Counted from the stretch's first letter, positions 4,611 through 56,343 are shown. The stretch is 64,000 nt of DNA from an uncultured bacterium (GCA_903912525.1 CAIWHK010000025.1:62001-126000), one strand, 5' to 3'. A program made the numbers and translations. The notes: a model not told the origin generated them from the letters alone.

Positions 4611-6107
4611 TCAACGCCCTCCGGGAGTCCGCCGCTCGTAGATGAAATAGCGGCCCACTTGCCCACCCGGTTCGTAGTTCTCGTCGACGAGCCGCATGAC
4701 TTCCGGTCCGAAGTGGACCGTCTCGTACCAGTCCTTGTGGGTCCGCGGGTCGTTCAGGAACACGATGGCCCGAAACGCCCCCGCCCGGATCCCGTCGTGC
4801 AGGTGGACCGCGAACTGCGGATCCCGTTCGGCCACGAGGCGGACCATGAAGGCGTCCAGGAGGTACGGGCGCTCGCCCGCCACGATCGGCAACAGAGGAT
4901 CTTCGGACAGGATCCCGCCGGTACCCGGCGCAATGGCGGCGGCGACGGCGCGTCTCTCCTGGCCCGCGCCTTCACGGGCGGCGGCGAGTTCCTGGCGCAG
5001 GGTGGCGCTCCCCGGCAGGACGGCCAACACGGCCAGCAACAGGAGCGCCGGTTCCAGCACCCGCCGCTGCGCAAGCGGCGCCTGGCCCACGGCAGCGCCG
5101 AGCAGCAGGGCCGAGGCTGTCACGAGATCGGCGAGGTGGTTCCAGGTGACCCCGGGCGAGCCGAAGATCACGACGGTCGTGCCGAAGCACACCGCCAGGT
5201 AGATTCCCGGCAGCGACCGGGCGCACGAACGAAAACGGCCCAGGCACGCGAGGCACGCGGCGCCGAAGAGGCCGAACCCCCACGGTTCCTTCCAGAGGAA
5301 CATCCCCCCCATGAGGCGGGGCGCGTCGAGCACCGACCCGGCCGTCGCGCCGCCCGCTGCGCAGGCGCGCAGGATCGTCAGGAAGCGACCCGCGCTCGCG
5401 ACCTCGGCCGCGGCAAGGACGGCCGAGCACCCCAGGGCGAAAAGTCCCGCAATGGCGGCGGCGTCGCGCTTCCGGCCCTGCACGAGAAGCCAGACACACA
5501 AGGCCGCGGCGCCGTGGATCGCCGTCAACTTGGCGGCAAAGGCGAGGGTGAACAGGAGGGCGGGCACCGCGATCCGGCTCCGCGCATTTCGCGCGCCGAG
5601 GTACGCGGCGAACCCCCACAGGTTGAGCGCAAGAGGCAGGATGTCGCCGCGTATCGTCGCGAAGCCGTGCTGCACGATGCCGGAGGCCAGCAGAAGCGCG
5701 GTCACCCCCGCCGCCAGGGGCCTGCTTACGGACAGGCGCCTCAGCAGGACAAAGGCGCCACCGAGGAGAAGTCCCCCGGAAAGGAGACTGACCACATGTC
5801 CCGCCACGATCGGCGCGAGCCCCGACTTGATGAGCAGCGCCTGCAGGGAAAAGAAGACGGGAAAGAAACGAGTGCCGCCGTAGCCGATCTGGGGCGAGTA
5901 CAGCGGCCGGTAGAAGATGCCCTGGGACAAGTCCGCCGCCATGGCGGTCCAGACGGCGGCCACATGATTGACATGAGTGCCGTTCCGGATGCCCAGGACA
6001 ATGCACGCGATCCCCAGGAGCCCGGCGGCGCAGGCGCAGGACAAAAACGCGCGGGACCATGCGGTCCCGCCGAACGGCTCTCCCCGGCCTTTCTCCCATC
6101 GCAGCAC
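4611..6107 (-). CDS. Polytopic membrane protein, GT-C glycosyltransferase-like
   Basis: 498 aa from a GTG at 6107, 10 nt after the preceding gene's stop. Seen: roughly ten or eleven hydrophobic segments across residues 20-400, an acidic loop after the first segment (AVWTAMAADLSQGIFYRPLY) followed by GGTRFFPVFF, and a soluble C-terminal tail of about 110 residues. This layout resembles the GT-C or ArnT/PMT-like lipid-linked sugar transferases, in which a periplasmic acidic loop near the first membrane span carries the catalytic residue. I do not see a diagnostic DxD or ExD, so the activity is inferred only from topology. It would act at the inner membrane on a polyprenyl-phosphate sugar. It lies last in a run of three minus-strand genes, and no glycan cluster is directly adjacent. 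Confidence 0.6.
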   Translation of the reverse strand: MLRWEKGRGEPFGGTAWSRAFLSCACAAGLLGIACIVLGIRNGTHVNHVAAVWTAMAADLSQGIFYRPLYSPQIGYGGTRFFPVFFSLQALLIKSGLAPIVAGHVVSLLSGGLLLGGAFVLLRRLSVSRPLAAGVTALLLASGIVQHGFATIRGDILPLALNLWGFAAYLGARNARSRIAVPALLFTLAFAAKLTAIHGAAALCVWLLVQGRKRDAAAIAGLFALGCSAVLAAAEVASAGRFLTILRACAAGGATAGSVLDAPRLMGGMFLWKEPWGFGLFGAACLACLGRFRSCARSLPGIYLAVCFGTTVVIFGSPGVTWNHLADLVTASALLLGAAVGQAPLAQRRVLEPALLLLAVLAVLPGSATLRQELAAAREGAGQERRAVAAAIAPGTGGILSEDPLLPIVAGERPYLLDAFMVRLVAERDPQFAVHLHDGIRAGAFRAIVFLNDPRTHKDWYETVHFGPEVMRLVDENYEPGGQVGRYFIYERRTPGGR

Positions 6108-7368: not shown

Positions 7369-9381
7369 ATGTGTGGCATCTGTGGAGTGCTGGCCATCGA
7401 AGGTCCGTTGGCGCTACCGCCGTCGGCCCCCGCGCGCATGGTCGGCGTGATGCGCCACCGTGGCCCTGACGAGTTCGGGGCCTGGCGGGACGCGTCCGTC
7501 TTCCTCGGACATGCGCGGCTCAGCATCATCGACCCACGCGACGGCCAGCAACCGATGGCCGACGCCGAAGGCCGCTGCCGCATCACGTACAACGGCGAGG
7601 TCTTCAACTACCTCGAGCTGCGCCGCGAGTTGGAAGCGCTCGGACGCACGTTCCGCACCCACAGCGACACCGAAGTGATCCTGAATGCGTGGCTCGAGTG
7701 GGGCCCCGCGTGCGTGGACCGCTTCAACGGCCAGTTCGCTTTCGCGCTGTGGGACACGGCGCAGAAGACGCTGTTCCTGGCCCGCGACCGCTTCGGCATC
7801 TGCCCGCTGTTCGTGGCCGAACACCAGGGACAACTGCTGTTCGCCTCGGAGATCAAGGCGCTCAAGGCGTTCCCCGGCTTCAGGGCCGAGCCCGAGGCGG
7901 CCGCGATGGGCGAAGTGCTCTCGTACTGGGCCAACGTGCCGCCGCGCACGGCGTTCGCCGGCGTGTTCCAGCTGCCGGCCGGCCATGTGGCGCTGGCGCA
8001 GCCGGGTCGCGCGCGCACCGCCACCGCCGGCGGATTGCTGCCGGCCTGCCTCGACGTGAAGCGCTACTGGGCGCCGTCGTTCCTGCCGGCCGACGAGGAC
8101 CGCCGCTTCGTCCCCGCGGCCGAACGCGCCGCCCTGGTGGGCGAATTGCGCGAGCGTCTCGAACAGGCCGTCGCCCTGCGCATGCGGGCCGACGTGCCGG
8201 TGGGCTCATACCTGTCGGGCGGGCTGGACTCCTCCGCGGTCGCCGCGCTGGCGCAGCGCCTGTCGAGCGGCCTGCTGTGCACCTACGGCCTGGGCTTCGA
8301 CAGCGCGGGCTACGACGAGCGGGAGTGGCAGCAGTTGATGGTCGAGCATTTGGGCGTCGCGCACGCGGGCGTCTTCGTCGACCAGGCCGAGGTGGCGCGC
8401 CGGTTGCGCGAAGTGCCCTGGCACGCCGAGGCCCCGCTGCCCCGCGCGGCGCCGACGCCGCTGTTGCTGCTCAGCCGCCACGTCCGCGCCCAGGGTTGCA
8501 AGGTCGTGCTGACCGGCGAGGGTGCCGACGAGGTGTTCGTCGGCTACGACATCCACCGCGAGGCCAAGGTGCGCGCGTTCTGGAACCGCATCCCCGGCTC
8601 CCGCGCGCGACCTGCCCTGCTGGCACGCCTGCACCCGTACCAGGAGCACGCGCCGCTGGACTTCCTGGTCAGCTTCTATGGCCGCGGTCTCGGCGATACC
8701 GCGGACCCGTTCCACTCGCACCGTCCGCGCTGGAACAACACCGCCGCGGCGAGCTTCCTGAACGAAGAGGCCCGCCGCGACCTGGCCACGGGCGAGTCCG
8801 AACGCCGGATGCTGGCCTCGCTGCCCGCCGAATTCGCCGGCTGGGGCCCGGTCGCCCGCTGCCAGTACCTGGAGATGGCGCTGTTCATGTCGGGCTACCT
8901 GCTCAGCTCGCAGGGCGACCGCATGCTGATGGCCAATTCCGTGGAGGGGCGGTTCCCCTACCTCGACCATACCCTGGTCGAGTTTGCGTCGCGGATCCCC
9001 GTGTCGGCGAAGTTGCCGGCGCTGGACGAAAAGGCCCTGCTCAAGGACGGCGTGGCCGACCTGGTGCCCGAGGCCATCCGCGGCCGGCACAAGCACCCGT
9101 TCCGCGCCCCGGGCAGCGTGTGCTTCGCGACGCCCGAGGGGCGCGCGCTGGTCGAGGACTTCCTGATGTCCGACGGCCCGGGCTGGGACGTGTGGCAGCG
9201 CGAAAAGGTGTCCGCGCTGGTTCGCAAGTGGGCTACCGGCCGACCGCTCAGCCAGCGTGACGACACCTCCTTTGTCGCCGTGCTGAGCGGGCGTATGCTT
9301 CAGCGTGATTTCGGGCCGCTGTTCGAGGAACGGGTGGCGGCCATGCAACTGGGACCTGATCAACTGGACTGGCGGGACTGA
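7369..9381 (+). CDS. asnB: Asparagine synthetase, glutamine-hydrolysing (AsnB family)
   Basis: 670 aa. The start MCGICG at 7369 exposes the catalytic Cys2 after Met removal, as required in class II amidotransferases; GAGGGGG at 7351 is the likely ribosome site. Seen: an N-terminal Ntn glutaminase domain (about 1-215; Cys2, RLSIID, the NGEVFNY and HSDTEV motifs), then a synthetase domain with the pyrophosphate loop SGGLDSS (283-289) and GEGADEVFVGY. It transfers glutamine ammonia to an acyl-adenylate, classically aspartate to asparagine. Directly followed by an acyl carrier protein and an AMP-forming ligase, it more probably amidates a pathway-specific carboxylate, as AsnB paralogues do in polysaccharide and natural-product clusters. 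It is somewhat longer than housekeeping AsnB (about 550-640 aa). Confidence 0.9.
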   Translation: MCGICGVLAIEGPLALPPSAPARMVGVMRHRGPDEFGAWRDASVFLGHARLSIIDPRDGQQPMADAEGRCRITYNGEVFNYLELRRELEALGRTFRTHSDTEVILNAWLEWGPACVDRFNGQFAFALWDTAQKTLFLARDRFGICPLFVAEHQGQLLFASEIKALKAFPGFRAEPEAAAMGEVLSYWANVPPRTAFAGVFQLPAGHVALAQPGRARTATAGGLLPACLDVKRYWAPSFLPADEDRRFVPAAERAALVGELRERLEQAVALRMRADVPVGSYLSGGLDSSAVAALAQRLSSGLLCTYGLGFDSAGYDEREWQQLMVEHLGVAHAGVFVDQAEVARRLREVPWHAEAPLPRAAPTPLLLLSRHVRAQGCKVVLTGEGADEVFVGYDIHREAKVRAFWNRIPGSRARPALLARLHPYQEHAPLDFLVSFYGRGLGDTADPFHSHRPRWNNTAAASFLNEEARRDLATGESERRMLASLPAEFAGWGPVARCQYLEMALFMSGYLLSSQGDRMLMANSVEGRFPYLDHTLVEFASRIPVSAKLPALDEKALLKDGVADLVPEAIRGRHKHPFRAPGSVCFATPEGRALVEDFLMSDGPGWDVWQREKVSALVRKWATGRPLSQRDDTSFVAVLSGRMLQRDFGPLFEERVAAMQLGPDQLDWRD

Positions 9382-9400
9382 GCCAAACAGGAGCCAAACG

Positions 9401-9655
9401 ATGGACCCGAGGACTCTCGTGCGCGATTTCGTGATCCAGAACTTCCTGTTCGGGGACGCCTCCGGACTGGCCGGCGACTCGGTGTCGCTGCTGGACAACG
9501 GCATCATGGATTCGCTGGGCGTGATGGAGCTCATCAACTTCCTGGAGATCGACCTGAAGATCCAGGTGCCCGACACCGACCTGGTGCCGCAGAATCTCGA
9601 CTCGATCGACAACCTCGTGGCCTACATCGCACGCCGTCAGGCGAGCGCGTCGTGA
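9401..9655 (+). CDS. Acyl carrier protein (pathway-specific)
   Basis: 84 aa from the ATG at 9401, with AGGAG 8 nt upstream, 19 nt after asnB. Seen: the four-helix ACP pattern with GIMDSLGVMEL, in which Ser38 is the expected 4'-phosphopantetheine attachment site, and an acidic recognition helix (ELINFLEIDLKIQVPDTDL). It would carry an acyl or aminoacyl group as a thioester in the cytoplasm. It overlaps the following AMP-forming ligase gene by 4 nt (GTGA), the usual arrangement when the ligase loads the carrier. It differs from fatty-acid AcpP (no GADSLD motif and no fab neighbours), so a dedicated pathway is likely. Confidence 0.9.
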   Translation: MDPRTLVRDFVIQNFLFGDASGLAGDSVSLLDNGIMDSLGVMELINFLEIDLKIQVPDTDLVPQNLDSIDNLVAYIARRQASAS

Positions 9656-11238
9656 TCCCGCCGCGCCTGCTTTCGGACGGGCTGCTGCGCTCGGCCGCCC
9701 GCCACCCCGACAAGGTCGCTGTGCGCGACGAGCATTCGACGTGGACCTATGCCCAGCTGCGCGACGGCGCCGGACGCGTTGCCGCCTGCCTGCTGGACCA
9801 CGGCCTGCCGCGCGGCGGCCGCGTCATCATCGACCTGGACAACAGCGGCGTGTGCGCGGCGGCGATCTACGGTGTGATGCTCGCGGGCGGCGTCTTCGTC
9901 ACCGTCAACCCGCAGACCAAGGCCGGCAAGCTGCGCTTCATCCTCGAGGACGCCGACGCCTTCGCCCTGGTCACCGACAAGCACCTGGCCGTGCAGTACG
10001 AACCGGCCGTGGCCGGCCTCGGCTGCCTGCGACTGGTGCTGTCGCACGGCGTGCCCGACGACAGCGCAGGCACCCCCTGCCGCCTCGACCTGGCCACGGT
10101 GCTCACGGGCGGGCGTCGGCTGGAAACGCCGGTGCCCGTCGTCGGCTGCGACCTCGCCGCCCTCATCTACACCTCGGGCAGCACGGGCCAGCCGAAGGGC
10201 GTCATGCAGACGCACCAGTCGATGGTCTTCGCGGCCTGGAGCATCATCGAGTACCTGGAACTGGTCCCCGAGGACCGCATCCTGCTGGTGCTGCCGATGG
10301 CCTTCGACTACGGCCTGTACCAGCTGCTGATGGCCGTCTTCGTCGGCGCCACGCTGGTGGTCGAGCGCTCGTTCGCGTTCCCGGGCCGCGTCTACGCCGT
10401 GATGGCCGAGCAGCAGGTGACCGTGTTCCCGGGCGTGCCGACCATCTACGCCACGATGCAGGCCGCCCACCTGAAGGCGCCGATGGCCTTCCCGTCGGTG
10501 CGCGCGGTGACGAACACGGCCGCCGCGCTGCTGCCGCACCTGCTGCCCACGCTGGCCGAGGTCTTCCCGAACGCCCGCGTCTTCAAGATGTACGGCCTGA
10601 CCGAGTGCAAGCGCGTGGCCTACCTGCCCCCGGCGCTGCTGGAGAGCCACCCGCGCTCGGTGGGCATCGCCATCCCGGGCACCGAGGTCTCGCTCCACGC
10701 GCTGGACGGGTCGCCGGTGGCGCCGGGGCAGCCCGGGATCCTGCACGTGCGCGGTCCGCACGTGATGGTCGGCTACTGGAAGCGCCCCGACCAGACGGCG
10801 CACATGCTGCGCGAGGGCCCCGTGCCCGGCGAGCGCGTCCTGGTCACGCATGACTGGTTCACCCAGGATGCGGACGGGCTGCTGCAGTTCGTCGGCCGCA
10901 GCGACGACATCATCAAGAGCCGCGGCGAGAAGGTCAGCCCGGTCGAGGTCGAGACGCTGCTGTGCCGCATGGACGGCATCGCGCAGGCGGCGGTCGTCGG
11001 CGTGCCTGACGCCAGCCTGGGCGAGCGCATCCGCGCCTTCGTGGTGCTGGACGACGTCGAGGCGGCGGCGAACGTGAACGCCAATACGGTGAAGCGCTTC
11101 TGCTCGCTGCACCTGGAGAACTTCATGGTGCCCCAGGAAGTCGTGGTGCTGCCCGACTTCCCGCGCACCGAGAACGGCAAGGTCGACCGCAAGCTGCTGG
11201 CGCAGGAGGACGGGCCGTATGCCCCAGGCGTCGTTTGA
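9652..11238 (+). CDS. AMP-forming acyl-CoA synthetase / acyl-ACP ligase
   Basis: 528 aa, GTG start at 9652 overlapping the ACP stop by 4 nt. ANL-superfamily enzyme that activates a carboxylate with ATP to an acyl-adenylate and passes it to CoA or a carrier-protein thiol. Seen: the phosphate loop TSGSTGQPKG (residues 174-183), the YGLTECKR motif, the hinge and C-terminal signature KSRGEKVSPVEVE, and the catalytic Lys in ENGKVDRKLL near the C terminus. Length is normal for the family. The neighbouring ACP is the likely acceptor. Similar ligases are annotated in exosortase-associated exopolysaccharide clusters, but no exosortase lies here. Substrate unknown. Confidence 0.92.
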   Translation: MIPPRLLSDGLLRSAARHPDKVAVRDEHSTWTYAQLRDGAGRVAACLLDHGLPRGGRVIIDLDNSGVCAAAIYGVMLAGGVFVTVNPQTKAGKLRFILEDADAFALVTDKHLAVQYEPAVAGLGCLRLVLSHGVPDDSAGTPCRLDLATVLTGGRRLETPVPVVGCDLAALIYTSGSTGQPKGVMQTHQSMVFAAWSIIEYLELVPEDRILLVLPMAFDYGLYQLLMAVFVGATLVVERSFAFPGRVYAVMAEQQVTVFPGVPTIYATMQAAHLKAPMAFPSVRAVTNTAAALLPHLLPTLAEVFPNARVFKMYGLTECKRVAYLPPALLESHPRSVGIAIPGTEVSLHALDGSPVAPGQPGILHVRGPHVMVGYWKRPDQTAHMLREGPVPGERVLVTHDWFTQDADGLLQFVGRSDDIIKSRGEKVSPVEVETLLCRMDGIAQAAVVGVPDASLGERIRAFVVLDDVEAAANVNANTVKRFCSLHLENFMVPQEVVVLPDFPRTENGKVDRKLLAQEDGPYAPGVV

Positions 11239-12109
11239 CGCGCGGCTGGCCGCGCTCGCCGCGCAGCTGGCCCCCGCCCCCGACAAACCCGAGGAGACGC
11301 CGGAGTCCACGCTGCGGGCGTTGTGGCTGCTGGCGGCGGGCAAGCCGGCCTCGGCGGCGCTGGCGATGGAAACGGACCTGCCGGCGCTGGACGACGGGGC
11401 GGCCGGCCGCCTCGACGACCTGGTGGCCGTGCGCCTGGGCGGCACGCCGCTGGCGTACCTGTCCGGTCGGCAGCGGTTCATGGGCCTGGAGTTTCTGGTG
11501 GAGCCGGGCGCGCTGATCCCGCGCGTGGAAACCGAGCTGCTGGCGAACGCCGCGCTGGCGTTCCTGAGGGCGGTGGCGGACCCGGATGGCCGCCGCTGCC
11601 TGGACATCGGCACCGGCAGTGGGAACCTCGCGGTGACGATGGCTGCGCTGTGCCCGGGCGCGCGGGTGCTGGCCAGCGATGTCTCCGAGGACGCGGCGCG
11701 CATCGCCCGCGCCAACGTAGCCAGCCTCGGCGTCAGCGACCGGGTTTCTGTCACGGTGGGCGACCTCTTCGGCCCGTTCGAGTCGGAGGAGCACTTCGGG
11801 CGCTACCCGCTCGTGCTCTGCAACCCGCCGTACGTCTCGTCGACGCAGGTGTCGCAGATGCCGGCGGAAATCTCGGGTTTCGAGCCGGCGGCCGCCTTCG
11901 ACGGCGGCTTCGGCGGCATGGGCGTGCTGCGGCGGTTGCTGCGCGACACCCCGCGTTTCCTGGCGCCCGGCGGGCGCCTGATGTTCGAAGTGGGCGCCGG
12001 CCAGGGCGAAGCGCTGCTGAAGAGCATGGCGGCGGGCGGCACTTATCGGATCGTCGAGGGCCTGCAGGACGAGCGTGGCATCGTGCGCGCCATCGTGGCG
12101 GGCTGCTGA
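11219..12109 (+). CDS. prmC: PrmC/HemK-family N5-glutamine methyltransferase
   Basis: 296 aa, starting inside the ligase gene (20-nt overlap), so translation is coupled. Seen: an N-terminal helical domain with PLAYLSGRQRFMGLEF, the SAM-binding loop LDIGTGSGNL (about 128-137) and the catalytic NPPY box (residues 202-205), which marks methylation of an amide or amino nitrogen. PrmC methylates the GGQ glutamine of release factors in the cytosol. The usual neighbour prfA is absent and the gene is embedded in the asnB-ACP-ligase cluster. It may therefore be the genomic PrmC placed here, or a paralogue that methylates an amide made by the AsnB homologue. The second idea is inference only. Confidence 0.82.
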   Translation: MPQASFDARLAALAAQLAPAPDKPEETPESTLRALWLLAAGKPASAALAMETDLPALDDGAAGRLDDLVAVRLGGTPLAYLSGRQRFMGLEFLVEPGALIPRVETELLANAALAFLRAVADPDGRRCLDIGTGSGNLAVTMAALCPGARVLASDVSEDAARIARANVASLGVSDRVSVTVGDLFGPFESEEHFGRYPLVLCNPPYVSSTQVSQMPAEISGFEPAAAFDGGFGGMGVLRRLLRDTPRFLAPGGRLMFEVGAGQGEALLKSMAAGGTYRIVEGLQDERGIVRAIVAGC

Positions 12110-12153
12110 GGCAACGAGCGGGCGTCGGCTGATGCGGCGCCGGGGGTGACGGG

Positions 12154-13137
12154 ATGTTCGACCGTAACGTGCTGGAGATCGACCTCGAGCGCGAGGCCAC
12201 CGAGATCGCCGCGGCCCTGCGCGACGTCGTGCTGAAGAAGCTGCGCGGACGCGGCCTGGTCATCGGCATCAGCGGCGGCATCGACAGTTCGGTGACTACC
12301 GCGCTGGCCGTGCGCGCGGTGGGACGCGAGCGCGTGTTCGGCCTTCTCATGCCCGAATACCATTCGAGCCCCGACAGTACGAAACGCGGGCTGATGGTCG
12401 TCGAGGACCTCGGCATCAGCCATGCGATCGAGGAGATCGGCCCGGCCCTGGAGGCCATCGGTTGCTACCGGCGCTACGAGGCTGCCGTGCGGCGCGTGGT
12501 GCCCGGCTACGGCTCCGGCTGGAAGAGCAAGGTCGTGCTGCCCGACGACCTGCTCAATTCCGACCGCATGAACGTCACGCGCCTGGTCGTGCGCACACCG
12601 GAGGGCGAACTCTCCACCGTGCGCCTGCCGGCCGACGTGTACCTCGAACTGGTGGCGGCGAACAACTTCAAGCAGCGCCTCCGCAAGAACCTGGAGTACC
12701 ACCACGGCGACCGCCTGCGGTACGCGGTGGCGGGCACGCCCAACCGCCTGGAGTACGACCAGGGGTTCTTCGTGAAGAACGGCGACGGCGCGGCCGACGT
12801 GAAGCCCATCGCCCATCTCTACAAGTCGCAGGTGTATGCGATGGCCAGGCACCTTGGCATGCGCGACGAACTGTGCAACGCCGAGCCCACGACCGACACC
12901 TACAGCCTGCCGCAGACGCAGACCGAGTTCTACTTCGTGCTGCCGTACCACCAGATGGACCTGCTGCTGTGGGCGCACAACCACGCCGTGACCGCCGCCG
13001 AGGCGGCGCCGGTCCTGGACCTGGCCCCCGAGCAGGTCGAGCGGGTGTACCGCGACATCGAGCGCAAGCGCGCGGCCACCGCCGCCCTGCACCTGGCGCC
13101 CCAGTTGCTGCGGCCGGTGGACGAAATCAGCCACTGA
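12154..13137 (+). CDS. nadE: NAD synthetase homologue (NadE, ammonia-dependent type)
   Basis: 327 aa. NadE amidates nicotinic acid adenine dinucleotide to NAD with ATP and ammonia. Seen: the PP-loop SGGIDSS (residues 40-46), GTPNRLEY, the FFVKNGDGAADVKPIAHLYK block and EPTTDTYSLPQTQTE, all near-canonical. No nitrilase (glutaminase) domain is present, so ammonia must come from outside. The protein is about 50 residues longer than typical 275-aa NadE; extra sequence lies around residues 115-190 (KSKVVLPDDLLNSDRMN and following). Its place 44 nt after prmC in a cluster that begins with a glutamine amidotransferase suggests either a sole cellular NAD synthetase or an amidotransferase recruited to the pathway. 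Which one cannot be decided here. Confidence 0.87.
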   Translation: MFDRNVLEIDLEREATEIAAALRDVVLKKLRGRGLVIGISGGIDSSVTTALAVRAVGRERVFGLLMPEYHSSPDSTKRGLMVVEDLGISHAIEEIGPALEAIGCYRRYEAAVRRVVPGYGSGWKSKVVLPDDLLNSDRMNVTRLVVRTPEGELSTVRLPADVYLELVAANNFKQRLRKNLEYHHGDRLRYAVAGTPNRLEYDQGFFVKNGDGAADVKPIAHLYKSQVYAMARHLGMRDELCNAEPTTDTYSLPQTQTEFYFVLPYHQMDLLLWAHNHAVTAAEAAPVLDLAPEQVERVYRDIERKRAATAALHLAPQLLRPVDEISH

Positions 13138-13277: not shown

Positions 13278-14087
13278 ATGAACCGCAATCGCCAGCGAAG
13301 CGTCCTCCGCGCGGCCCTCGGGCTGGCCGTGGCGCTGGGCTGCGCCTGCGGTTGCCGCCCCGTGGAGAGCGCCATGCCCGTCGATTCCCCGCCGACCGCG
13401 GCCCAGTGGCAGGCCTTCGCGGCGCGACGGATCGTCTTCGGCCACCAGTCGGTCGGGCGCAACATCCTCGGCGGCGTGGCGACGCTGGCTGCCGGAGCCG
13501 GCGTCGCGTTGCCGATCACCGAGACGCGCGACGGCGCCGTGGCGCCCGGCATCGCGCACTTCGGCGTCGGCGCCAACGGCGATCCCCTCGGCAAGATCCG
13601 CGATTTCGCGGCCGTCATGGACGGGCCCGCGGGCGCGGGCGCAGACATCGCGCTGCTGAAGCTCTGCTACATCGACTTCTCGGGGACGGCCGACCCTGCA
13701 ATGCTGGCCGCGGCCTACGGCGACACGCTGGCCCATCTGCAGCAGCGCCATCCCGCCACGGCCTTCGTCGCGGTGACCGCGCCGCTGACCACGGTGCAGA
13801 CCGGGCCGAAGGCGCTCGTCAAGAAGCTGCTCGGGCGCGCGCCGGACGGTCGCGTGGAGAACACGCGCCGCGAGGCGTTCAATGCGGTGCTGCGCGCCCG
13901 CTTCGGCGCCGAGGGCCGGTTGTTCGACCTGGCCGCGCTGGAGAGCGGCGGCGGCGACGCCCTGAACGCGGCCCTCACAAGCGACGGCGGCCACCTGAAC
14001 GACGCCGGCGCCCGCCTCGTGGCCGAGCGATTCGTGGCGTTCCTGGCCGGGCTGCCGCCTGCGCCCAGCGGAACGAAGGCGCCCTGA
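13278..14087 (+). CDS. Putative lipoprotein, SGNH-hydrolase-like
   Basis: 269 aa from the ATG at 13278 (AGAGGGA upstream); the signal peptide begins here. Seen: a positively charged N terminus and hydrophobic core ending in Cys residues (VALGCACGC), a possible though imperfect lipobox. Next come IVFGHQSVGRNI near the N terminus of the mature part and GGHLNDAGARLVAERF near the C terminus. These fit the first and last blocks of SGNH/GDSL hydrolases, with Ser in HQSVG as nucleophile candidate and the final Asp/His pair in a variant HLND block. It would act in the periplasm or at the surface on an ester such as an O-acetyl group. It is coupled by a 1-nt overlap (TGATG) to a hexapeptide acyltransferase, consistent with polysaccharide O-acetyl turnover. 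Confidence 0.62.
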   Translation: MNRNRQRSVLRAALGLAVALGCACGCRPVESAMPVDSPPTAAQWQAFAARRIVFGHQSVGRNILGGVATLAAGAGVALPITETRDGAVAPGIAHFGVGANGDPLGKIRDFAAVMDGPAGAGADIALLKLCYIDFSGTADPAMLAAAYGDTLAHLQQRHPATAFVAVTAPLTTVQTGPKALVKKLLGRAPDGRVENTRREAFNAVLRARFGAEGRLFDLAALESGGGDALNAALTSDGGHLNDAGARLVAERFVAFLAGLPPAPSGTKAP

Positions 14088-14743
14088 TGGCCGCCCCGCT
14101 GATGGAGGACGTCAGGCGCCTGCACGCGCTCCGGCACCCCGGCCGGCCGGCCTCGGCGACCGCGCTGCTGAGGGTGGGGCTGGGCTCGCCCGGCATCCGC
14201 CTGCTGGCCTGCCAGCGCATCCTCCACCGCTTCGAGCGCCCGCACCCCCGCGCCCTGCGTCGACTGCTTCCCGTCCTGGCGGCGAAGGCGCTGGTCCTGA
14301 CGGCGCGTCGCTACGTCATGGTCTTCGGCAAGGGCGTGTTCGCGCCCGAGATGCCGCTCGAGCCGGGCGTCGTGTTCGCGGACCGCGGCCACCTGGTCGT
14401 GGGCGCGCGCTCGATCGGGACCGGCACCGTCATCGGCGAACGCACGACGATCGGCATGAACCTCACGCCCGACCAGCGGCCGTGGATCGGCCGCAACGTG
14501 TGGATCGGCTCCCACTGTATCGTCTACGGCGACATCCGCATCGGCGACGGCGTCACGATTTTGCCGCACACGCTGCTCACGCGCAGCGTGCCGGCCGGCG
14601 CGGTCGCCGAGGGCAACCCGGCGCGCATCCGCGTGAACGAGACGGACCACAGCGAACTGCGTCGGCGGCACTTCGGTTTCGCGGGTGTCGACGACGCTCC
14701 CGCCGTGGCCGCCGGCGCCGACCTCGAACCGGAGGCCGTCTGA
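14087..14743 (+). CDS. Hexapeptide-repeat acyltransferase (serine acetyltransferase-like) 1
   Basis: 218 aa, start overlapping the previous stop by one base (TGATG). Seen: an N-terminal helical part (about 1-85), then a left-handed beta-helix of hexapeptide repeats (about 95-190) with IGTGTVIGERTTIGMNL, WIGRNVWIGSHCIVYGDI and IGDGVTILPHTLLT, ending in the usual EGNPARI block. Such enzymes transfer an acetyl or other acyl group from acyl-CoA to a hydroxyl or amine. The His in the SHC segment is a catalytic candidate. Together with the next gene, which has the same fold, and the SGNH-like lipoprotein before it, it suggests a glycan or small-molecule O-acylation unit. Cysteine synthesis (CysE) is less likely because CysE-specific N-terminal features are missing. 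Confidence 0.82.
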   Translation: MAAPLMEDVRRLHALRHPGRPASATALLRVGLGSPGIRLLACQRILHRFERPHPRALRRLLPVLAAKALVLTARRYVMVFGKGVFAPEMPLEPGVVFADRGHLVVGARSIGTGTVIGERTTIGMNLTPDQRPWIGRNVWIGSHCIVYGDIRIGDGVTILPHTLLTRSVPAGAVAEGNPARIRVNETDHSELRRRHFGFAGVDDAPAVAAGADLEPEAV

Positions 14744-15318
14744 TGGCCGGGGCGTTCGCCAACCTGCGCGCGGACATCCGCCGGAACCACTCGGGACCGC
14801 ACCGCCTCGGTCCGGCCCGGGTCGTGCGCCTGGTGTGGGAACAGCCGGGTCTGCAGGCGCTGGTCGCCTACCGCCTGGGCCGCTGGCTGAAACGGCACGC
14901 GAGGCAGCCCTTCGTGTGGCCGCTGGCGCTGCTCCTGTTCCCGCTCTTCATCCTGCTCCAGGCCTGCGTGCGCGGGGCCTACGACATCCAGCTGGGACTC
15001 GACGCCGACATCGGGCCCGGGCTCTACATCGGGCACCTCGGCGGCATCCGCCTGGCCGCCTGCACACTGGGCCGCCGTTGCGCCATCCAGCAGGAAGTGC
15101 GGCTGCTGCCGGCGGCCAAGGGCGAGCGCGGTCCCGAGATCGGCGACGAAGTATGGATCGGCGCGCACGCCTGCATCACCGGGCCGCTCACCGTCGGCGC
15201 CGGCGCCACGATCAGCGCCGGCTCGGTCGTCACGGCCGACGTGGCCCCGCGGTGCCTGGTGCTGGGCGACCCGGCGCGCGTCATCCGCTGGGACTTCGAC
15301 AACAGCTCGTTCCTCTGA
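14743..15318 (+). CDS. Hexapeptide-repeat acyltransferase (serine O-acetyltransferase-like) 2
   Basis: 191 aa, start again overlapping the preceding stop by one base. Seen: ADIRRN and a QALVAYRLGRWLKRH segment like the N terminus of CysE-type enzymes involved in colanic acid and capsule modification, a hydrophobic stretch (about 60-80, PLALLLFPLFILLQ) and a left-handed beta-helix (about 85-180) with IGPGLYIGHLGGI, IGDEVWIGAHACITGPL and VVTADVAPRCLVLGDPAR. The His in IGHLGG is the typical CysE-family catalytic residue. The hydrophobic patch suggests membrane association. It probably acylates a nucleotide sugar, lipid-linked sugar or the product of the upstream cluster. It closes the TGATG-linked trio. 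Confidence 0.85.
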   Translation: MAGAFANLRADIRRNHSGPHRLGPARVVRLVWEQPGLQALVAYRLGRWLKRHARQPFVWPLALLLFPLFILLQACVRGAYDIQLGLDADIGPGLYIGHLGGIRLAACTLGRRCAIQQEVRLLPAAKGERGPEIGDEVWIGAHACITGPLTVGAGATISAGSVVTADVAPRCLVLGDPARVIRWDFDNSSFL

Positions 15319-15373: not shown

Positions 15374-16030
15374 ATGCCCGGACGCTCCCGCATCCCGCAG
15401 CCCTGGACCGCCGCCGAGCGCCGCGTCCTGAAGCGCCTGAAGTCGCCGCAGGACATCCAGCTGTACCTGAACGCGCTGAAGTACGACGCCGACTACCGCG
15501 CGCGCTCGCCGCGCCGCGTCATGCGCGAGGGCAAGGCCGCCTGCTTCGACGGGGCGATGTTCGCGGCGGCCGCCCTGCGCGAACTGGGGTTCCGCCCGCA
15601 GCTGGTCGACCTGCGCGCCTGGAACGACGACGACCATGTGCTGGCGGTGTTCAGGGTCGATGGTCGCTGGGGCGCCGTCGCCAAGTCGAACACGACGGTG
15701 CTGCGCTACCGCGAGCCGGTGTACCGCTCGCTGCGCGAGCTGGTGATGTCGTACTTCGAGGTCTACTTCAACACCGTGGGCCAGAAGACGCTGCGCAGCT
15801 ACTCGCGTCCGCTGGACCTGGCGACGCTGGACCACCGGGGCTGGCTGGTCGACGAGGACGACCTCGGCTGGATCGGCGACAAGCTGGACGAGTTGCAGCA
15901 CCTGCCGGTGGTGACGCCCGCGCAGATCCGCAGCCTGGCCCCGGTCGACCCGGCGCTGATGAAGGCGGGTTTCCTGGGCGCCGTGCAGGCGGGGCTGTAC
16001 CAGGCGAAGAAGAGGCGGCCGCTGGCGTGA
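15374..16030 (+). CDS. Transglutaminase-fold protein
   Basis: 218 aa from the ATG at 15374, preceded by GAAAGGA. Seen: GKAACFDGAMFAAAALRELG, which matches the active-site helix of transglutaminase-like cysteine proteins (Cys about residue 57), followed by DDDHVLAVFR with a His about 40 residues later, and VAKSN as the third block. No signal peptide or membrane span, so it is probably cytoplasmic. Members of the fold hydrolyse or transfer amide bonds. It lies 55 nt after the acyltransferase pair on the same strand and may be the last gene of the asnB cluster, but its independent function is unknown. The C-terminal third (about 150-218) has no motif I recognise. Confidence 0.7.
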   Translation: MPGRSRIPQPWTAAERRVLKRLKSPQDIQLYLNALKYDADYRARSPRRVMREGKAACFDGAMFAAAALRELGFRPQLVDLRAWNDDDHVLAVFRVDGRWGAVAKSNTTVLRYREPVYRSLRELVMSYFEVYFNTVGQKTLRSYSRPLDLATLDHRGWLVDEDDLGWIGDKLDELQHLPVVTPAQIRSLAPVDPALMKAGFLGAVQAGLYQAKKRRPLA

Positions 16031-39296: not shown

Positions 39297-39919
39297 GGTT
39301 CCCCCGGGCCGGACGGGCCTTGGGGCCCCGTCACGTTTCCTTCGCGATCCTGTCGGTCCCGCGCCGCCTTCAATTTGCGGCGGGCCGTCTGCAGCATTCC
39401 CCGCGCACCTGACGCCGAGTGCAGGCCGAGCACCCGCGTGATTTCGTCGACCGGCATGTGCTCGGCGCACCGCAGCCAGACGGCGCGCTGCTCCTGCGGA
39501 TCGAGGTTCTGGCGCACGAGCGCCAGGAGCGCCTCGCGTTCCTGCCGGTCCTCGAGGTCCGACGCCGGGTCGGGCCGCGGATCGGGCAGGTCCTCCAGTT
39601 CGCAGTCCTCGTCCCGCGCCAGCGGCCGGGCCCGCGCAGCGCGCAGGCAGGCGTGGTGCGTGACGACGAACAGCCAGCCCCCGAACGGGGCCTTGCCTTC
39701 CCAGGTCGCCAGCGAGCGCCACGCCGTCAGCAGGACGTCCTGCGCCAGGTCCAGCGCCTGGTCCGGGTCGCGGCGATAGCGGCGACACCAGGCGTAGACG
39801 CGCGTGTGGTAGCGCCCGAACAACTCGGCCGCCGCCGCCTCGCTCCGCGGCCCGCCGGAGCGGACCAGGTCGACCAGGTCGGCGTCGCCCAGGGTCACCA
39901 TGGACTTGCGCCCCATCAT
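39293..39919 (-). CDS. RNA polymerase sigma factor, ECF family
   Basis: 208 aa. Start ATG-ATG at 39919 overlaps the CHAT gene stop by 4 nt (ATGA); the longer open frame upstream is the CHAT gene itself in another frame. Seen: region 2 (about 25-95) with LFGRYHTRVYAWCRRYRRDPDQALDLAQDVLL and APFGGWLFVVTHHACLRAARAR, an acidic linker (EDCELEDLPDPRPDP), and region 4 (about 130-190) with LDPQEQRAVWLRCAEHMPVDEITRVL and GARGMLQTARRKLKAA, a helix-turn-helix for the -35 element. It would direct RNA polymerase to a specific regulon. Its neighbours are an anti-sigma-like protein and a CHAT protease-like protein. Confidence 0.93.
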   Translation of the reverse strand: MMGRKSMVTLGDADLVDLVRSGGPRSEAAAAELFGRYHTRVYAWCRRYRRDPDQALDLAQDVLLTAWRSLATWEGKAPFGGWLFVVTHHACLRAARARPLARDEDCELEDLPDPRPDPASDLEDRQEREALLALVRQNLDPQEQRAVWLRCAEHMPVDEITRVLGLHSASGARGMLQTARRKLKAARDRQDREGNVTGPQGPSGPGEP

Positions 39920-42762
39920 GGAAGAGTCCCTTCGCGCCCGGAAATCACACGCCGGTTCCGGGGATGGCTGCGGCGGGTCAGCCACAGGCTTCCCAGGACC
40001 CCCAGGGCCGCGACTCCGCCGAAGGCCGCCGGGCGGGCCGGCGACGGCCGGCGCTCCAGCGCCACGACCTGGGAACCGTCCCCGACCACCACGAAACCGG
40101 CCCAGTGGATGGGGGCCGCGGTGGCCGGTTGCGCGGCCAGGGCCCGGCGCGTGGCCGCCAGGGCGCCGGCAACGGTGGCGCCCTTCTCGAGTTCCCGGTA
40201 GAAGTGCTTCATGAACTGGGCCGCGACGGCGTCGTCGACGTCCCACAGCGAGGCGACCACTGCATGCGGCCCGGCCGCCAGGAACGCGCCGGTCAGGCCG
40301 AGCATGCCTTCGCCCGACAGCGCCTGGCCACCGGCCGAGGAACAGCTCGACAGCACGACCAGCGGCACCGCGAGCGGGTTGGCGGCGATGTCGGCGCTCA
40401 CCAGCCAGCGGGCGTTGCCGTCGGGATCGGCTCCGGCGCGGATGCGCGAATTCCACGGACGCTGGTCGTAGACCTCCGAGTGCGCCGGGATGTGCAGGAC
40501 CGCGGCGCCGGATGCGGCCTGCAGCCAACGGCCGTTCTCGGCACCGGCGCCGCCGGCCTCCAGGCGCTGGACGGCGCGGAATCGCCGTTCCAGCCACGCG
40601 GCCTCGCGTTCGGCGCCCGGCAGACGAACGTCGCCTTTGGCCTCGCCCCCGGCGACGACAACGAGCCCGCGCGGCGCGCCGCTATCGACATGATGCCGCA
40701 GGCTGGCCAGTACGGTGGCCGACGGCACCCGCATCACCTCGCGGGCGATCCCGAGCGCTTCCCCCGCAGGGCCGGGCGCGGGCAGCAGTTCTAACGGGAG
40801 GCGGTTGAGCAGCCCGTCGGCGGACACCACCACCCGCCGGGCGCCGGCCAGTTCGGCGGCGCAGGGCTCGATCAGCTCGCGGGACAGGCGACGGGCGGCC
40901 GGCGCGCCATCGGCCGGTGACGCGCCGGGCGCCGATGACGTCAGGAGGTCCAGGAACAGCGCCACGGGGCCGCGCCAGTGCGACGCCGCCGCCAGGTCCA
41001 GGACGCGGCAACTGCTGTCGGTCACGACGAAGACCAGAGAGGCGCGATCGCCCAGATAGTAGTCCAGCAGCACCTCGCCCGGCTCGAGCACGCTCCGCTG
41101 CAGGTACTCCAGCGTCACCGGCGGCTCTGCCGCGGCGGCGCCCGCGGCGAATGCGTCGGGACCGAGCCGGCTCTCGAGCAGGGTGCGCGCCTTGTAGCCC
41201 TGCATCGCCTCGAAGGCGCGACGCGTGCGGTCTGCGGCCGGCGCCGACGCCGGGTGTTCCAGCAGCACTTCGGCCAGTGCGAGGTGGATCGCCGTGCCGA
41301 GCGCGCCGCGCCGTTCGCGCCACTGCGGGTCGCGCGGCACGGCCCGGACATCGTCCCACAGGCGGCAGGCTTCCTGGAGGTCAGCCAGGGCACTGTCGGC
41401 CAGCGCGGGCTCGGCCACGGCCAATGCGCGCCGCGCCTGGCTGAGAACGAGCAGGGCCGACAGTTCGTTGGTATGGAAGCCGCCGGTGCGGAAGGCCGAG
41501 CGGGCCCGGCCCGCCAGCTTCACGGCGGTCCGCTGGTCGCCGAGGGCTGCCGACGCCTCCGCTCGCAGCTGGTCCAGGCGCGCCATCTGGTACGCATCGG
41601 CCCCGGTCGGCAGCGCAGCGGCCAGCGAATCGGCGAACTGCAAGGCCTCGAGCGGGCGGGCGCTCAGCAGGAGCGATCCTGGGATCTCGATGGCTGCCTC
41701 CAGGCCGTCCCGCCCCGCCCCGGCGCCCAACGCCAGCACCTGACGCCACAGCGCCCGGGCGTCCGCGTTCCGGCGGTGAGACTGCTCGACAGCGGCCAGT
41801 TGCCCCAGCACCAGCGCTTCCTGCTCGCGATAGTTGCCCGCGCGACAGACAGCCAGCAGGTCCATCAGCGAGACACGCGCCTCGTCGAACGCGCCGAGCG
41901 CCATGCGCGCCATGGCAAGGTTGGCGGACGGGGTGACGAGCGCGGCGGGATTCCCGCCCTTGCGGCGCGCTTCCAGCGTGCGCTCCCAGTATTCGACCGC
42001 GCGACCGGGATCACCGGACTGGTACTCGTAGCTGCCGAGGTTGTTCAGCGCGTAGCCCACAACGCGGGTCTGGCCCAGCTGGCCGCCGACGCGGATCACC
42101 TTCTCGTACAGGCGGCACATCTCCCGATAGCGCCCTTCGGCGCCCAGCGCGCGGGCCCGGCCGATGTCCGCGTCCAGAGCGACGGAATTTTCGCCGGCCG
42201 ACTCGAACAACGCCCCCGCGCGCTCGTAGCCGTCGCGCGCCACCGCCGCCTCGCCACGCCCGAGCGCCTGGTACGACAGGCCCAGCAGGGCGTAGGCCTC
42301 CTCGCGGCGGTCGCCCGCAGCCAGGGCGTCGCGGCGCAGTTCGGTGTAAACTGCGGCGGCCTCGGCGGCGCGCCCCTGCCCCAGCAGGGAATAGCCCAGC
42401 CAGCGGTGCGCTGTACGGCCGGGTCCCGGGGCGGCGAGAAGCGTCGCCAGTTCCCCGGCACGGCGCGCCGCCTGCTCCGAGTCCTTCAGGCGCCCGAGCA
42501 GCGCCAGTCCGCCAGCCTCCAGGAGGCGCGCGCGCAGCTCAAGATTGCGGTCACCGGCGGCAGTCGCGCGCTCGAGCACCGGCATGGCCAGGGCCAGCAC
42601 CGAGTCCGCGGCACCCTTGCGCAGGTGGCGGTCAGCACGCACGAAGACGGAATCGACCGGCGCCCCGGCGGCAGGCGGGCTCGGCGCGGCCGCGCTCGCG
42701 GCCAGGGGGACCGCCAGCGCGAGCAGGACATTGCACAACAGCCGGGGCCGGTGGCCTCGCAT
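39916..42762 (-). CDS. Exported TPR-CHAT protein (caspase-like peptidase fold)
   Basis: 948 aa. Seen: signal peptide (MRGHRPRLLCNVLLALAVPL and an Ala-rich end near residue 26), then about a dozen tetratricopeptide-like helical repeats over residues 45-470 (Ala/Leu-rich with YALLGLSYQALGRGEAA, YALNNLGSYEYQSGDPGRA). A CHAT domain follows over about 610-890 with the catalytic dyad candidates His761 (IPAHSEV) and Cys807 (LSSCSSAGGQ), then GLTGAFLAAGPHAVVASLWDV. A C-terminal membrane span (about 905-926) is followed by a basic tail. Topology would place the protease on the periplasmic face. CHAT domains are caspase-related cysteine proteases. It is the first gene of an operon with an ECF sigma factor and an anti-sigma-like protein, so regulated cleavage of the latter is a strong hypothesis. 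Confidence 0.9.
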   Translation of the reverse strand: MRGHRPRLLCNVLLALAVPLAASAAAPSPPAAGAPVDSVFVRADRHLRKGAADSVLALAMPVLERATAAGDRNLELRARLLEAGGLALLGRLKDSEQAARRAGELATLLAAPGPGRTAHRWLGYSLLGQGRAAEAAAVYTELRRDALAAGDRREEAYALLGLSYQALGRGEAAVARDGYERAGALFESAGENSVALDADIGRARALGAEGRYREMCRLYEKVIRVGGQLGQTRVVGYALNNLGSYEYQSGDPGRAVEYWERTLEARRKGGNPAALVTPSANLAMARMALGAFDEARVSLMDLLAVCRAGNYREQEALVLGQLAAVEQSHRRNADARALWRQVLALGAGAGRDGLEAAIEIPGSLLLSARPLEALQFADSLAAALPTGADAYQMARLDQLRAEASAALGDQRTAVKLAGRARSAFRTGGFHTNELSALLVLSQARRALAVAEPALADSALADLQEACRLWDDVRAVPRDPQWRERRGALGTAIHLALAEVLLEHPASAPAADRTRRAFEAMQGYKARTLLESRLGPDAFAAGAAAAEPPVTLEYLQRSVLEPGEVLLDYYLGDRASLVFVVTDSSCRVLDLAAASHWRGPVALFLDLLTSSAPGASPADGAPAARRLSRELIEPCAAELAGARRVVVSADGLLNRLPLELLPAPGPAGEALGIAREVMRVPSATVLASLRHHVDSGAPRGLVVVAGGEAKGDVRLPGAEREAAWLERRFRAVQRLEAGGAGAENGRWLQAASGAAVLHIPAHSEVYDQRPWNSRIRAGADPDGNARWLVSADIAANPLAVPLVVLSSCSSAGGQALSGEGMLGLTGAFLAAGPHAVVASLWDVDDAVAAQFMKHFYRELEKGATVAGALAATRRALAAQPATAAPIHWAGFVVVGDGSQVVALERRPSPARPAAFGGVAALGVLGSLWLTRRSHPRNRRVISGREGTLP

Positions 42763-42907: not shown

Positions 42908-43603
42908 TCAGACCGCAATGTGGAACAGCTTCCCGACCAGCGCGGTGGCCGCCATGGCGAGCGCGCCCCAGAACGTGACGCGCGCCGCCGCCACGCCGAC
43001 CGGCGCCCCGCCGGCACGGGCCGCGAGGCCTCCCAGCAGCGCCAGCAGCACCAGGGCGCTGCCGCCGACCAGCGGCACCCGCTGCGCCGCCGGAACCATG
43101 GCGACGATCGCCACAGGCACGGCCGCTCCCACGGCGAACGACGCGGCCGAGGCCAGCGCCGCCTGCAGCGGGCGCGCCGTGTGGATCTCGGACAGGCCGA
43201 GTTCGTCGCGCGCATGGGCGCCCAGCGCGTCGTGGTCCATCAGTTGCAGCGCCACCTGCCGCGCCAGGACCGGGTCCAGGCCGCGGCCCTGGTAAATGAG
43301 GGCCAGTTCGTCCTGCTCGTGCTCGAGGTCCTCTTCCAGTTCCCGCTTCTCGCGCGCCAGGTCGGCCCGCTCGGCATCGGCCTGCGAGCAGACCGAGACG
43401 TACTCGCCGGCCGCCATCGAAAGCGCGCCGGCCGCCAGCCCGGCCACGCCGGCCAGCAGCACGGTGCCCCGCGAGGCGCCGCCCGCGGCCACGCCTACGA
43501 TCAGGCTGGCGGTCGAGACGATGCCGTCGTTGGCGCCGAGCACCGAGGCGCGCAGCCAGCCGATGCGGTCGGCAACGTGTCGTTCACGATGGAAGGGTGT
43601 CAC
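42908..43603 (-). CDS. VIT1/CCC1 family iron/manganese transporter
   Basis: 231 aa from a GTG at 43603 overlapping the TerC stop by 4 nt (GTGA). Seen: DRIGWLRASVLGANDGIVSTASLIVGVAAG, the diagnostic first-span motif of the family, MAAGEYVSVCSQADAERADL with the conserved Glu and Met metal-binding residues, a cytoplasmic charged helix (about 85-140, REKRELEEDLEHEQDELA) that in homologues loads the metal, and C-terminal spans (about 150-228). Bacterial and fungal members export or sequester Fe2+ or Mn2+ across the membrane. It is last in an apparent metal-handling operon with TerC and a ferritin-like protein. Confidence 0.93.
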   Translation of the reverse strand: MTPFHRERHVADRIGWLRASVLGANDGIVSTASLIVGVAAGGASRGTVLLAGVAGLAAGALSMAAGEYVSVCSQADAERADLAREKRELEEDLEHEQDELALIYQGRGLDPVLARQVALQLMDHDALGAHARDELGLSEIHTARPLQAALASAASFAVGAAVPVAIVAMVPAAQRVPLVGGSALVLLALLGGLAARAGGAPVGVAAARVTFWGALAMAATALVGKLFHIAV

Positions 43604-44577
43604 TTCGGTTCCTTGCCGGCCGGGGCGGCGCGACCGTCGCCGGCCTTCACCGAGAACAGGACGCCCGTCGCCATCACGACCGTGATGATGGCCAGCGACC
43701 AGAGAGCCGGGATATGGACCCATTCGGCCAGGAGCATCTTCACGCCGACATAGCCCAGGATGATGACGATGCTCGGCTTCAGGTAGCGGAACCGGTCCAT
43801 GAACCCGCTGAGCAGGAAGAACAGGGCGCGCAGGCCGAGAATGGCGAAAATGTTCGACGAGAAGACGAGGAAGGGGTCACGCGTGACGCCGAACACCGCC
43901 GGGATGGAGTCGACGGCGAAGACGACGTCGCTGGTCTCGACCAGCATCAACAGCGGCACCAGCGGCGTGGCCCACAGCACGCCGTTCTCGCGCACCAGGA
44001 AGCTCGTGCCCCGGTAGTCGCTGGTCACCCGCAGGTGGCGTCGCGTCCAGCGCAGGACCGGGTTGTGCTCCAGTTCGGGGTCCTCGTCGCCGTGCTTCAG
44101 CATGCGCAACGCGGTCCAGACCAGGATGGCGCCGAAGACGTAGGTCATCCACTCGAAGCGGTTGATGAGCGCGACGCCCGCGCCGATCATCGCCCCGCGC
44201 AGGATCAGCGCGCCGAGGATGCCCCAGAACAGGGCGCGATGCTCCAGCGCCGACGGCAGGCGGAAGTACCGGAAGATCATCGCGATGACGAAGAGGTTGT
44301 CCAGGCTGAGCGAACGCTCGACCACATAGGCGACCACGTACTGCGTGGCCGCCTGCGTGCCGGTCAGCACCTCGTGGCCGGAAAGCCCCATCCCGAACCA
44401 GTGGCGGTCGTAGAGGAAGTAGACCACGATCGCGAAAGCGAGCGCGACGACCGTCCACAGGATGGACCACCGCAACGCCTCGCGAATGGCAATGACATGG
44501 GCCTTGCGGTGAAAGACCCCGAGGTCCAACGCCAGCAGGCCCAGGATCAGTGCCAGGAACAGGATCCAGACGATCAA
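43600..44577 (-). CDS. TerC/Alx family integral membrane protein 2
   Basis: 325 aa from a TTG at 44577 (MIVWILFL on initiation), AGGTGGCGG upstream. Seen: the same family motifs as the copy at 18766: LDLGVFHRKAHVI, VVERSLSLDNLFVIAMIF and ETSDVVFAVDSIPAVFGVT, and eight or nine membrane spans. It lacks the Cys-bearing insertion of that copy. It is part of a three-gene minus-strand group: ferritin-like protein (25 nt upstream), TerC, then VIT1/CCC1 (4-nt overlap). This favours a role in iron or manganese handling, agreeing with published links of Alx/TerC to Mn2+ homeostasis. Confidence 0.9.
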   Translation of the reverse strand: MIVWILFLALILGLLALDLGVFHRKAHVIAIREALRWSILWTVVALAFAIVVYFLYDRHWFGMGLSGHEVLTGTQAATQYVVAYVVERSLSLDNLFVIAMIFRYFRLPSALEHRALFWGILGALILRGAMIGAGVALINRFEWMTYVFGAILVWTALRMLKHGDEDPELEHNPVLRWTRRHLRVTSDYRGTSFLVRENGVLWATPLVPLLMLVETSDVVFAVDSIPAVFGVTRDPFLVFSSNIFAILGLRALFFLLSGFMDRFRYLKPSIVIILGYVGVKMLLAEWVHIPALWSLAIITVVMATGVLFSVKAGDGRAAPAGKEPK

Positions 44578-44602
44578 ACCGCCACCTCAACCCGGTTCGG
44601 GA

Positions 44603-45118
44603 CTACATCGGCGAGAAGCCCTGCTCGGCCCAGTAGGCGTCCTGGTAGATCTTCTCCAGTTCGAGCAACTGGGTCAGGTGGCCGTCCTCCCACTCCAGCA
44701 GCCACGTGAACAGCTGCTTGAGGTCGGGATCGGCGGTCCGCGCCGCGTGGTCGCGATAGTAGGCGATGGCCTTGTTCTCGAGGTCGCAGCCGATGCTGAT
44801 GACGGCCATCTCGAAGTTGCCCTTGCGCACGGCGCGCTTGAAGTCGTCGGTGATGACGGTCTGTGAGCCGTGATCCAACTCGGCCGGGTTCAGCCCCTCG
44901 AGGTTCAGGCGGCCGTCCGCCAGCAGGTGGCGGTACTGCGTGGTGAGGATGCGGACATGGTCGTCCTCGTCGCGCGCGAGCATCTCGAACATGGCGCGCG
45001 CCGTGGGATCGGTCGCCTGTTCGGCGGCGTGGCTGTACAGCTGCTGGCCCTTCACCTCGACCATCACGGCATCCTTGATGGCTTTGAGCAGCGCGTCCTT
45101 CTTCTGACCCTCGTTCAT
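44603..45118 (-). CDS. Ferritin-like/rubrerythrin-type diiron protein
   Basis: 171 aa from the ATG at 45118, with GGGAGGA 6 nt upstream. Seen: a four-helix bundle pattern with carboxylate/His ligands spaced as in ferritin-like proteins: VEVKGQQLY, then LARDEDDHVRIL, IGCDLENKAIAYYRDHA and EWEDGHLTQLLELE. These four Glu/ExxH-type segments would bind a diiron centre. It lacks the rubredoxin domain of true rubrerythrins. Probably an oxidoreductase or an iron-binding protein in the cytoplasm. The position before TerC and VIT1/CCC1 fits metal or oxidative stress handling. The Mla genes upstream end 55 nt away, so read-through is possible. Confidence 0.85.
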   Translation of the reverse strand: MNEGQKKDALLKAIKDAVMVEVKGQQLYSHAAEQATDPTARAMFEMLARDEDDHVRILTTQYRHLLADGRLNLEGLNPAELDHGSQTVITDDFKRAVRKGNFEMAVISIGCDLENKAIAYYRDHAARTADPDLKQLFTWLLEWEDGHLTQLLELEKIYQDAYWAEQGFSPM

Positions 45119-45173
45119 CCCGTTCCTCCCGTGTGTCGGGCCGGCGTGCCGGCCATTCCCGCCGTCAGGCAAA

Positions 45174-52069: not shown

Positions 52070-52182
52070 CGGAAGCCGGGCGGGAAACAGCGATCGGGAT
52101 GCGTGCCGGTTCCCGCGCCGGATCCCGCTTATTCATGCGTTGTGTTGTCCCCGAGCCCGGGTTGGCCGGAAGGATCCTGACG

Positions 52183-56286: not shown

Positions 56287-56343
56287 CAATTGCATCCCCG
56301 ATCCCCTGGTCGGCGCGCCCAGCGCCGGAACGGAGCCTCCACC

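Follow-up and report, generated by a model that had tools for sequence, protein, structure and literature searches.

Why should a bacterium place relatives of two housekeeping enzymes, the NAD synthetase NadE and the release-factor methyltransferase PrmC, in one run with an amidotransferase, a carrier protein and a ligase? The question is raised by positions 7369-13137 of a 64,000-nucleotide stretch of DNA from an uncultured bacterium (the whole stretch is called the window below), where the plus strand carries, one after another and in the same direction, genes for AsnB, ACP, an AMP-ligase, a PrmC-like and a NadE-like protein. An earlier note had described them as one coupled cluster, and coordinates and family scans agree with it, the spacing being, in order, a 19-nt gap, a 4-nt overlap, a 20-nt overlap and a 44-nt gap.

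The five genes and those that follow them

The first gene (7369..9381) starts with ATG and encodes an AsnB-like glutamine amidotransferase/synthetase (PF13537 and PF00733; TIGR01536, 496 bits) with the N-terminus MCGICG; Cys2, the PP-loop and a Lys are kept among the cluster homologues. It is followed by an acyl or aminoacyl carrier protein (9401..9655; PF00550), whose phosphopantetheine Ser38 lies within DSLG and is found in 62 of 62 cluster homologues, and by an AMP-forming ligase (9652..11238; PF00501 and PF13193), which has a VinN-like, amino-acid type of pocket and is called class I here. The PrmC-like N-methyltransferase, PrmC2 (11219..12109), carries the NPPY motif and belongs to the HemK/PrmC family (TIGR00536, 163 bits, cut-off 115.5). 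The last, NadE2 (12154..13137), is a paralogue of ammonia-dependent NadE with the PP-loop SGGxDS (NF002048, 483 bits, cut-off 313; PF02540, 150 bits). None of the five proteins has lost catalytic residues, either in the window or among the cluster homologues.

While the extent of the run stands for these five genes, its apparent end had been set too early, since three more genes continue on the same strand. A gene for an SGNH-hydrolase-like lipoprotein (13278..14087, weak match to PF13472, conserved FGHQSVG...DGGHLND) is probably an extension of the operon, and its homologues adjoin the cassette in other phyla. Next come two hexapeptide (left-handed beta-helix) acyltransferases, A (14087..14743; PF00132, 46 bits, with EpsC/LpxD-like matches) and B (14743..15318), which is serine-acetyltransferase/EpsC-like (NF041874, 77 bits, below the cut-off of 150); other phyla, too, have homologues of B close to the cassette. 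The lipoprotein and the hexapeptide acyltransferases recur beside the gene set in some relatives. Acyltransferases of the LpxA/LpxD type use acyl-ACP, and the two hexapeptide proteins, whose sequence matches are weak, are therefore candidate transferases.

Membership of the plus-strand gene after them (15374..16030), encoding a transglutaminase-like protein (weak PF01841), is uncertain, and it has no counterpart beside the cassette in the relatives' loci examined. Apart from this small gene, two long adjoining proteins with transglutaminase-like domains are encoded at 51979-58443. On the other side of the run, on the minus strand (4611-6107), lies a gene for a 498-residue hydrophobic protein with no Pfam match, possibly a membrane glycosyltransferase; a homologue is located upstream of the cassette in a genome of the same genus (L063).

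NadE2 and PrmC2 as additional copies

Are NadE and PrmC of the run the housekeeping enzymes of this bacterium? The earlier note had proposed to settle this by phylogeny, and both turned out to be extra copies, which branch separately from their housekeeping counterparts, each in its own clade. A second NadE is present in the genome as a 638-residue open frame (PF02540, 4.9e-73) and is the housekeeping copy, and of 50 genomes carrying NadE2, nearly all have a conventional NadE as well. In trees made as quick searches, NadE2 forms a deep clade separate from the housekeeping NadE of the family to which the window belongs. The second copy together with the separate clade rules out a housekeeping role for NadE2.

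The same holds for PrmC2. It has the methyltransferase fold with NPPY of PrmC/HemK, the release-factor glutamine N5-methyltransferase, but it is a second copy in a clade of its own. The other PrmC of the genome lies within a run of rho, DUF1385, prfA, prmC and an EPSP-synthase-family gene and has a PrmC_N domain (PF17827), whereas the family scan reports no such domain in PrmC2, and it is this other copy that prfA adjoins. PrmC2 also falls short of the equivalog TIGR03534 (193 bits against a cut-off of 199.1). Among 17 genomes checked, two or more HemK-family genes were counted in each of the 16 that have a PrmC in the cluster, and a single one in L012, which lacks it. In the tree, a branch with full support parts the PrmC2 proteins, whose cassettes come from several bacterial classes, from the rest; since the profile used to gather them had itself been made from cluster members, this is to be taken as a consistency check and not as a blind test. 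With the prfA-linked copy and the separate clade, a housekeeping role is ruled out for PrmC2, too.

What, then, distinguishes NadE2 from a conventional NadE? The insertion noticed before, then put at 50 residues, is real and amounts to about 55 columns missing from housekeeping NadE (residues ~103-165). In a structure model (pLDDT 90), whose closest folds are NAD synthetases, it appears as a helix and three additional beta-strands. When NadE2 was compared with six housekeeping NadE proteins, all from the same family, 23 of the 56 columns conserved in both sets were found to differ, mostly in the second half, where the acid site is. The acid-side motifs are swapped for other invariant ones (EYDQGFFVK, PTTDTYS and QxQxEFYF), so the acid-substrate pocket is not that of housekeeping NadE, while the nucleotide-binding (ATP) core, the PP-loop and several NadE-family residues are kept. 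Thus, NadE2 shares with NadE and the NMN synthetase of Francisella the fold and the ATP-pyrophosphatase core, but departs from them in its pocket, its insertion, its phylogenetic position relative to the family's housekeeping NadE and its usual company of AsnB-type partners.

Conservation of the cassette across phyla

To see the run in other genomes, NadE2 relatives were fetched by the NadE2 protein alone, so that neighbouring genes played no part in their selection. The best 80 of at least 566 were taken, a sample that favours close relatives, and many of them are metagenome-assembled and may be mis-binned. Both asnB and the ligase are present at 57 of the 79 loci scored from these 80. Among loci of the same sample flanked on each side by 4.5 kb or more, asnB, ACP and ligase lie beside NadE2 at 43 of 50, and PrmC2 is nearby at 16 of 50. 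Loci bearing the ligase come from at least eight phyla (Pseudomonadota, Myxococcota, Acidobacteriota, Krumholzibacteriota, Ignavibacteriota, Gemmatimonadota, Planctomycetota and Verrucomicrobiota). With the same genes together in dozens of relatives over such a range, the grouping is not a matter of chance, and it is well supported that the five genes are a conserved cassette of many phyla. Sole copies, grouping with housekeeping enzymes and an unconserved gene order had been named as what would speak against a dedicated cluster; none of the three was found. Two amidating enzymes in one run, which had been considered unusual, are not so here, since NadE2, wherever it occurs, is as a rule accompanied by AsnB.

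Some of these genes resemble those of the XrtA/PEP-CTERM exopolysaccharide locus, where AsnB and ligase are homologous, and some relatives of the cassette share its exopolysaccharide context. Both proteins of the window, however, score below the cut-offs of the models for that system, AsnB with 382 versus 817 bits (TIGR03108) and the ligase with 411 versus 592 (TIGR03098), and NadE2 and PrmC2 are added. No exosortase (PF09721) was found in the whole genome to which the window belongs, which bears out the earlier note on the window itself, and one is present in only 18 of the 50 carrier genomes. Exosortase as a requirement is thus ruled out.

Further neighbours that recur in other phyla are genes for glycosyltransferase, Wza-type export, Wzz, sugar transferase, polysaccharide deacetylase, Wzy and GNAT, and it is these neighbourhoods that point to a role in glycan formation. 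No polysaccharide export gene adjoins the cassette of the window; Wza-like genes of this genome lie on other contigs. A search covering open-licence papers found no description of the cassette or its pathway. Genes labelled as NAD synthase (NF002048/PRK00876), or possibly called automatically as release-factor methyltransferase, appear to serve a common non-housekeeping pathway in many phyla, and the labels nadE and prmC on NadE2 and PrmC2 mislead metabolic models and predictions of essential genes.

NadE2 and AsnB within one family

NadE2 and the ACP/ligase operon are unlinked in the majority of related genomes from the window's family. Does NadE2 act alone there? Among 38 genomes of the window's order, all from one family, 24 have NadE2 and AsnB, one has NadE2 only, two have AsnB only and 11 have neither, with split genes counted (Fisher p 7e-7, relatedness not corrected); the single genome with NadE2 only is a 1.9-Mb one, 75% complete. 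Those with an unlinked NadE2 still have a close AsnB (52-60% identical), which adjoins ACP and ligase elsewhere in the genome where its surroundings could be read. Action of NadE2 alone is ruled out by these operons, and from the genome-wide co-occurrence NadE2 is a member of the AsnB-ACP-ligase set, also where the two are unlinked. In the tree, NadE2 of the window falls within the family's own clade while that of L083, another member of the family, groups with Thioalkalivibrio, which suggests more than one origin or arrival of the linked form. In several genomes of the family (L012, L013 and L014) the unlinked NadE2 is followed by genes for an Rrf2-type regulator, a phosphate acetyltransferase and an acetate kinase-like protein.

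It might be supposed that NadE2 is just a second NAD (or NMN) synthetase, used under certain conditions and carried along with an exopolysaccharide operon, and the fold, the PP-loop and the NadE-family residues that it has kept would suit such an enzyme. The housekeeping NadE of nearly all carrier genomes, the replacement of the acid-side motifs by other invariant ones and the co-occurrence with AsnB all argue against it, and this explanation is improbable.

The ligase pocket and its methyltransferase

Which acid does the ligase load? Its best solved relative is VinN (3WVN, E 1.7e-78), which loads 3-methylaspartate, and aspartate poorly, on a stand-alone ACP (PMC11284099) and whose specificity depends on D230, F231, S299, K330 and R331 and a shortened loop (PMC11253843). 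D219, Y220, T289, K320 and R321 of the window ligase align with these residues, with conservative changes at two positions, and the beta13-beta14 loop is also short, with a one-residue gap relative to class II. From this pocket, the substrate is most likely an amino-dicarboxylate. Among cluster ligases R321 is invariant (67/67) while D219 is variable: class I has D, T, K and R with the short loop, and in the others D is changed to S, C, A, V or N, many of them having a longer loop.

The class of the ligase and the presence of PrmC2 go together. Within the locus, PrmC2 accompanies 25 of 30 class I ligase sets and none of 36 other ligases, and on the NadE2 tree seven independent pairs show the association and none the opposite (median p 0.03). 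Three of the five class I loci with no local PrmC2 have an unlinked one elsewhere in the genome; it was not found in the other two class I genomes, L024 and L086. Within the family of the window, two PrmC copies occur in the six class I genomes (G000, G052, G053, G058, G065 and G068) and in no others. Among 27 searched genomes with other ligases, PrmC2 was met only in Steroidobacter agaridevorans, and this apparent exception is removed by a second operon, asnB-ligase-ACP-PrmC2, whose ligase is of class I. That operon (L181, 9645-16900) has homologues of the SGNH and hexapeptide acyltransferase genes and lies about 11 kb from the set containing NadE2; one NadE2 may serve both. AsnB and NadE2, on the other hand, are retained when the ligase changes class.

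The likeness to the vicenistatin enzymes VinN and VinL, a stand-alone adenylation enzyme and a stand-alone ACP, extends to the pocket positions (Asp for the amine, Lys-Arg and the shortened beta13-beta14 loop). VinN is a natural-product enzyme, and the logic of VinN, VinL and VinO starts macrolactams (PMC11284099); could the run then be a small secondary-metabolite cluster, which releases a peptide-like amide and decorates no glycan? Unlike the vicenistatin system, the run has no PLP decarboxylase (VinO), VinM, VinK or PKS, and amidating and methylating enzymes are in their place. Pfam scans of window stretches detected no NRPS or PKS modules near the cassette, and its relatives in other phyla stand in a polysaccharide context and not in a polyketide one. 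A released metabolite is therefore improbable.

A possible pathway and its product

Taken together, the genes can be read as a carrier-dependent pathway that prepares an amide-bearing acyl group, which is then attached to a surface glycan; we give this reading a probability of roughly 45%, and we infer each of its chemical steps, as well as the glycan acceptor, from gene content and relatives. The ligase would adenylate an amino-dicarboxylate (aspartate or something closely similar) and load it on the ACP as VinN does. The free carboxylate would be converted to a primary amide by glutamine-dependent AsnB, by ammonia-dependent NadE2 or by both, and PrmC2 would methylate the nitrogen of that amide. 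In the last step, a hexapeptide acyltransferase would pass the group on to a sugar, with the SGNH lipoprotein as a possible editor of the glycan outside the cell.

AsnB and NadE2 are N-type ATP pyrophosphatases, enzymes that make amides, and would presumably do so here. Since an amide-directed NPPY methyltransferase is present only with one substrate class, it is suggested that the group derived from an amino acid is N-methylated at an amide. Persistence of AsnB and NadE2 across ligase classes suggests, in turn, that the carboxylate amidated by them is either one common to all loaded acids, consistent with the invariant R321, or on the sugar. The earlier note had the set make and modify an amide on a carrier-bound acid; either of these places fits as well as one such acid amidated by both enzymes, and the amide made by AsnB and NadE2 may not be on the loaded acid.

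If it is on the sugar, the product might be an aminoacylated uronamide: AsnB, with or without NadE2, would convert a uronic acid, perhaps in the form of a nucleotide sugar, to its amide, and ligase and ACP would provide an aminoacyl group for an amino sugar. In the part of the published account covered here, such a product resembles the linking sugar of the Wbp/Vim pathway (WbpS, VimA, VimE) of P. gingivalis, in which an AsnB relative, WbpS, makes the uronamide (PMC7468200) and an amino acid is attached to a surface sugar. Independence of AsnB and NadE2 from the ligase class agrees with this, the nucleotide-binding core kept in NadE2 could suit a nucleotide-linked acid, and relatives repeatedly have GNAT and deacetylase genes in the neighbourhood. 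However, that part of the account describes no carrier protein, ligase, NadE2 or PrmC2, Pfam recognised no VimA, VimE or Wbp sugar enzymes in the window stretches scanned, and no uronic-acid or amino-sugar genes were recognised adjoining the cassette of the window. Moreover, PrmC2 tracks the ligase pocket, which indicates the acyl group as its target. An aminoacylated uronamide is thus a doubtful, though not far-fetched, product.

Under the carrier-bound amide reading, one may go further and regard NadE2 as a new ammonia-dependent amide synthetase and PrmC2 as a new small-molecule (carboxamide) N-methyltransferase gained or lost with the substrate class of the ligase. The two would then mark out a widespread pathway, not described before, in which N-methylated amides of amino acids arise on a carrier protein and are destined for surface glycans. 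This fuller proposal is speculative and rather unlikely to hold in all its parts. The near-perfect tracking of one ligase pocket by PrmC2 makes the chemistry directly testable.

Farther along the window, a large TPR protein with a CHAT (caspase-like) domain is encoded at 39916-42762, and one minus-strand run at 42908-46067 holds genes for a VIT-family transporter, TerC, a rubrerythrin/encapsulated-ferritin-like protein and MlaD.
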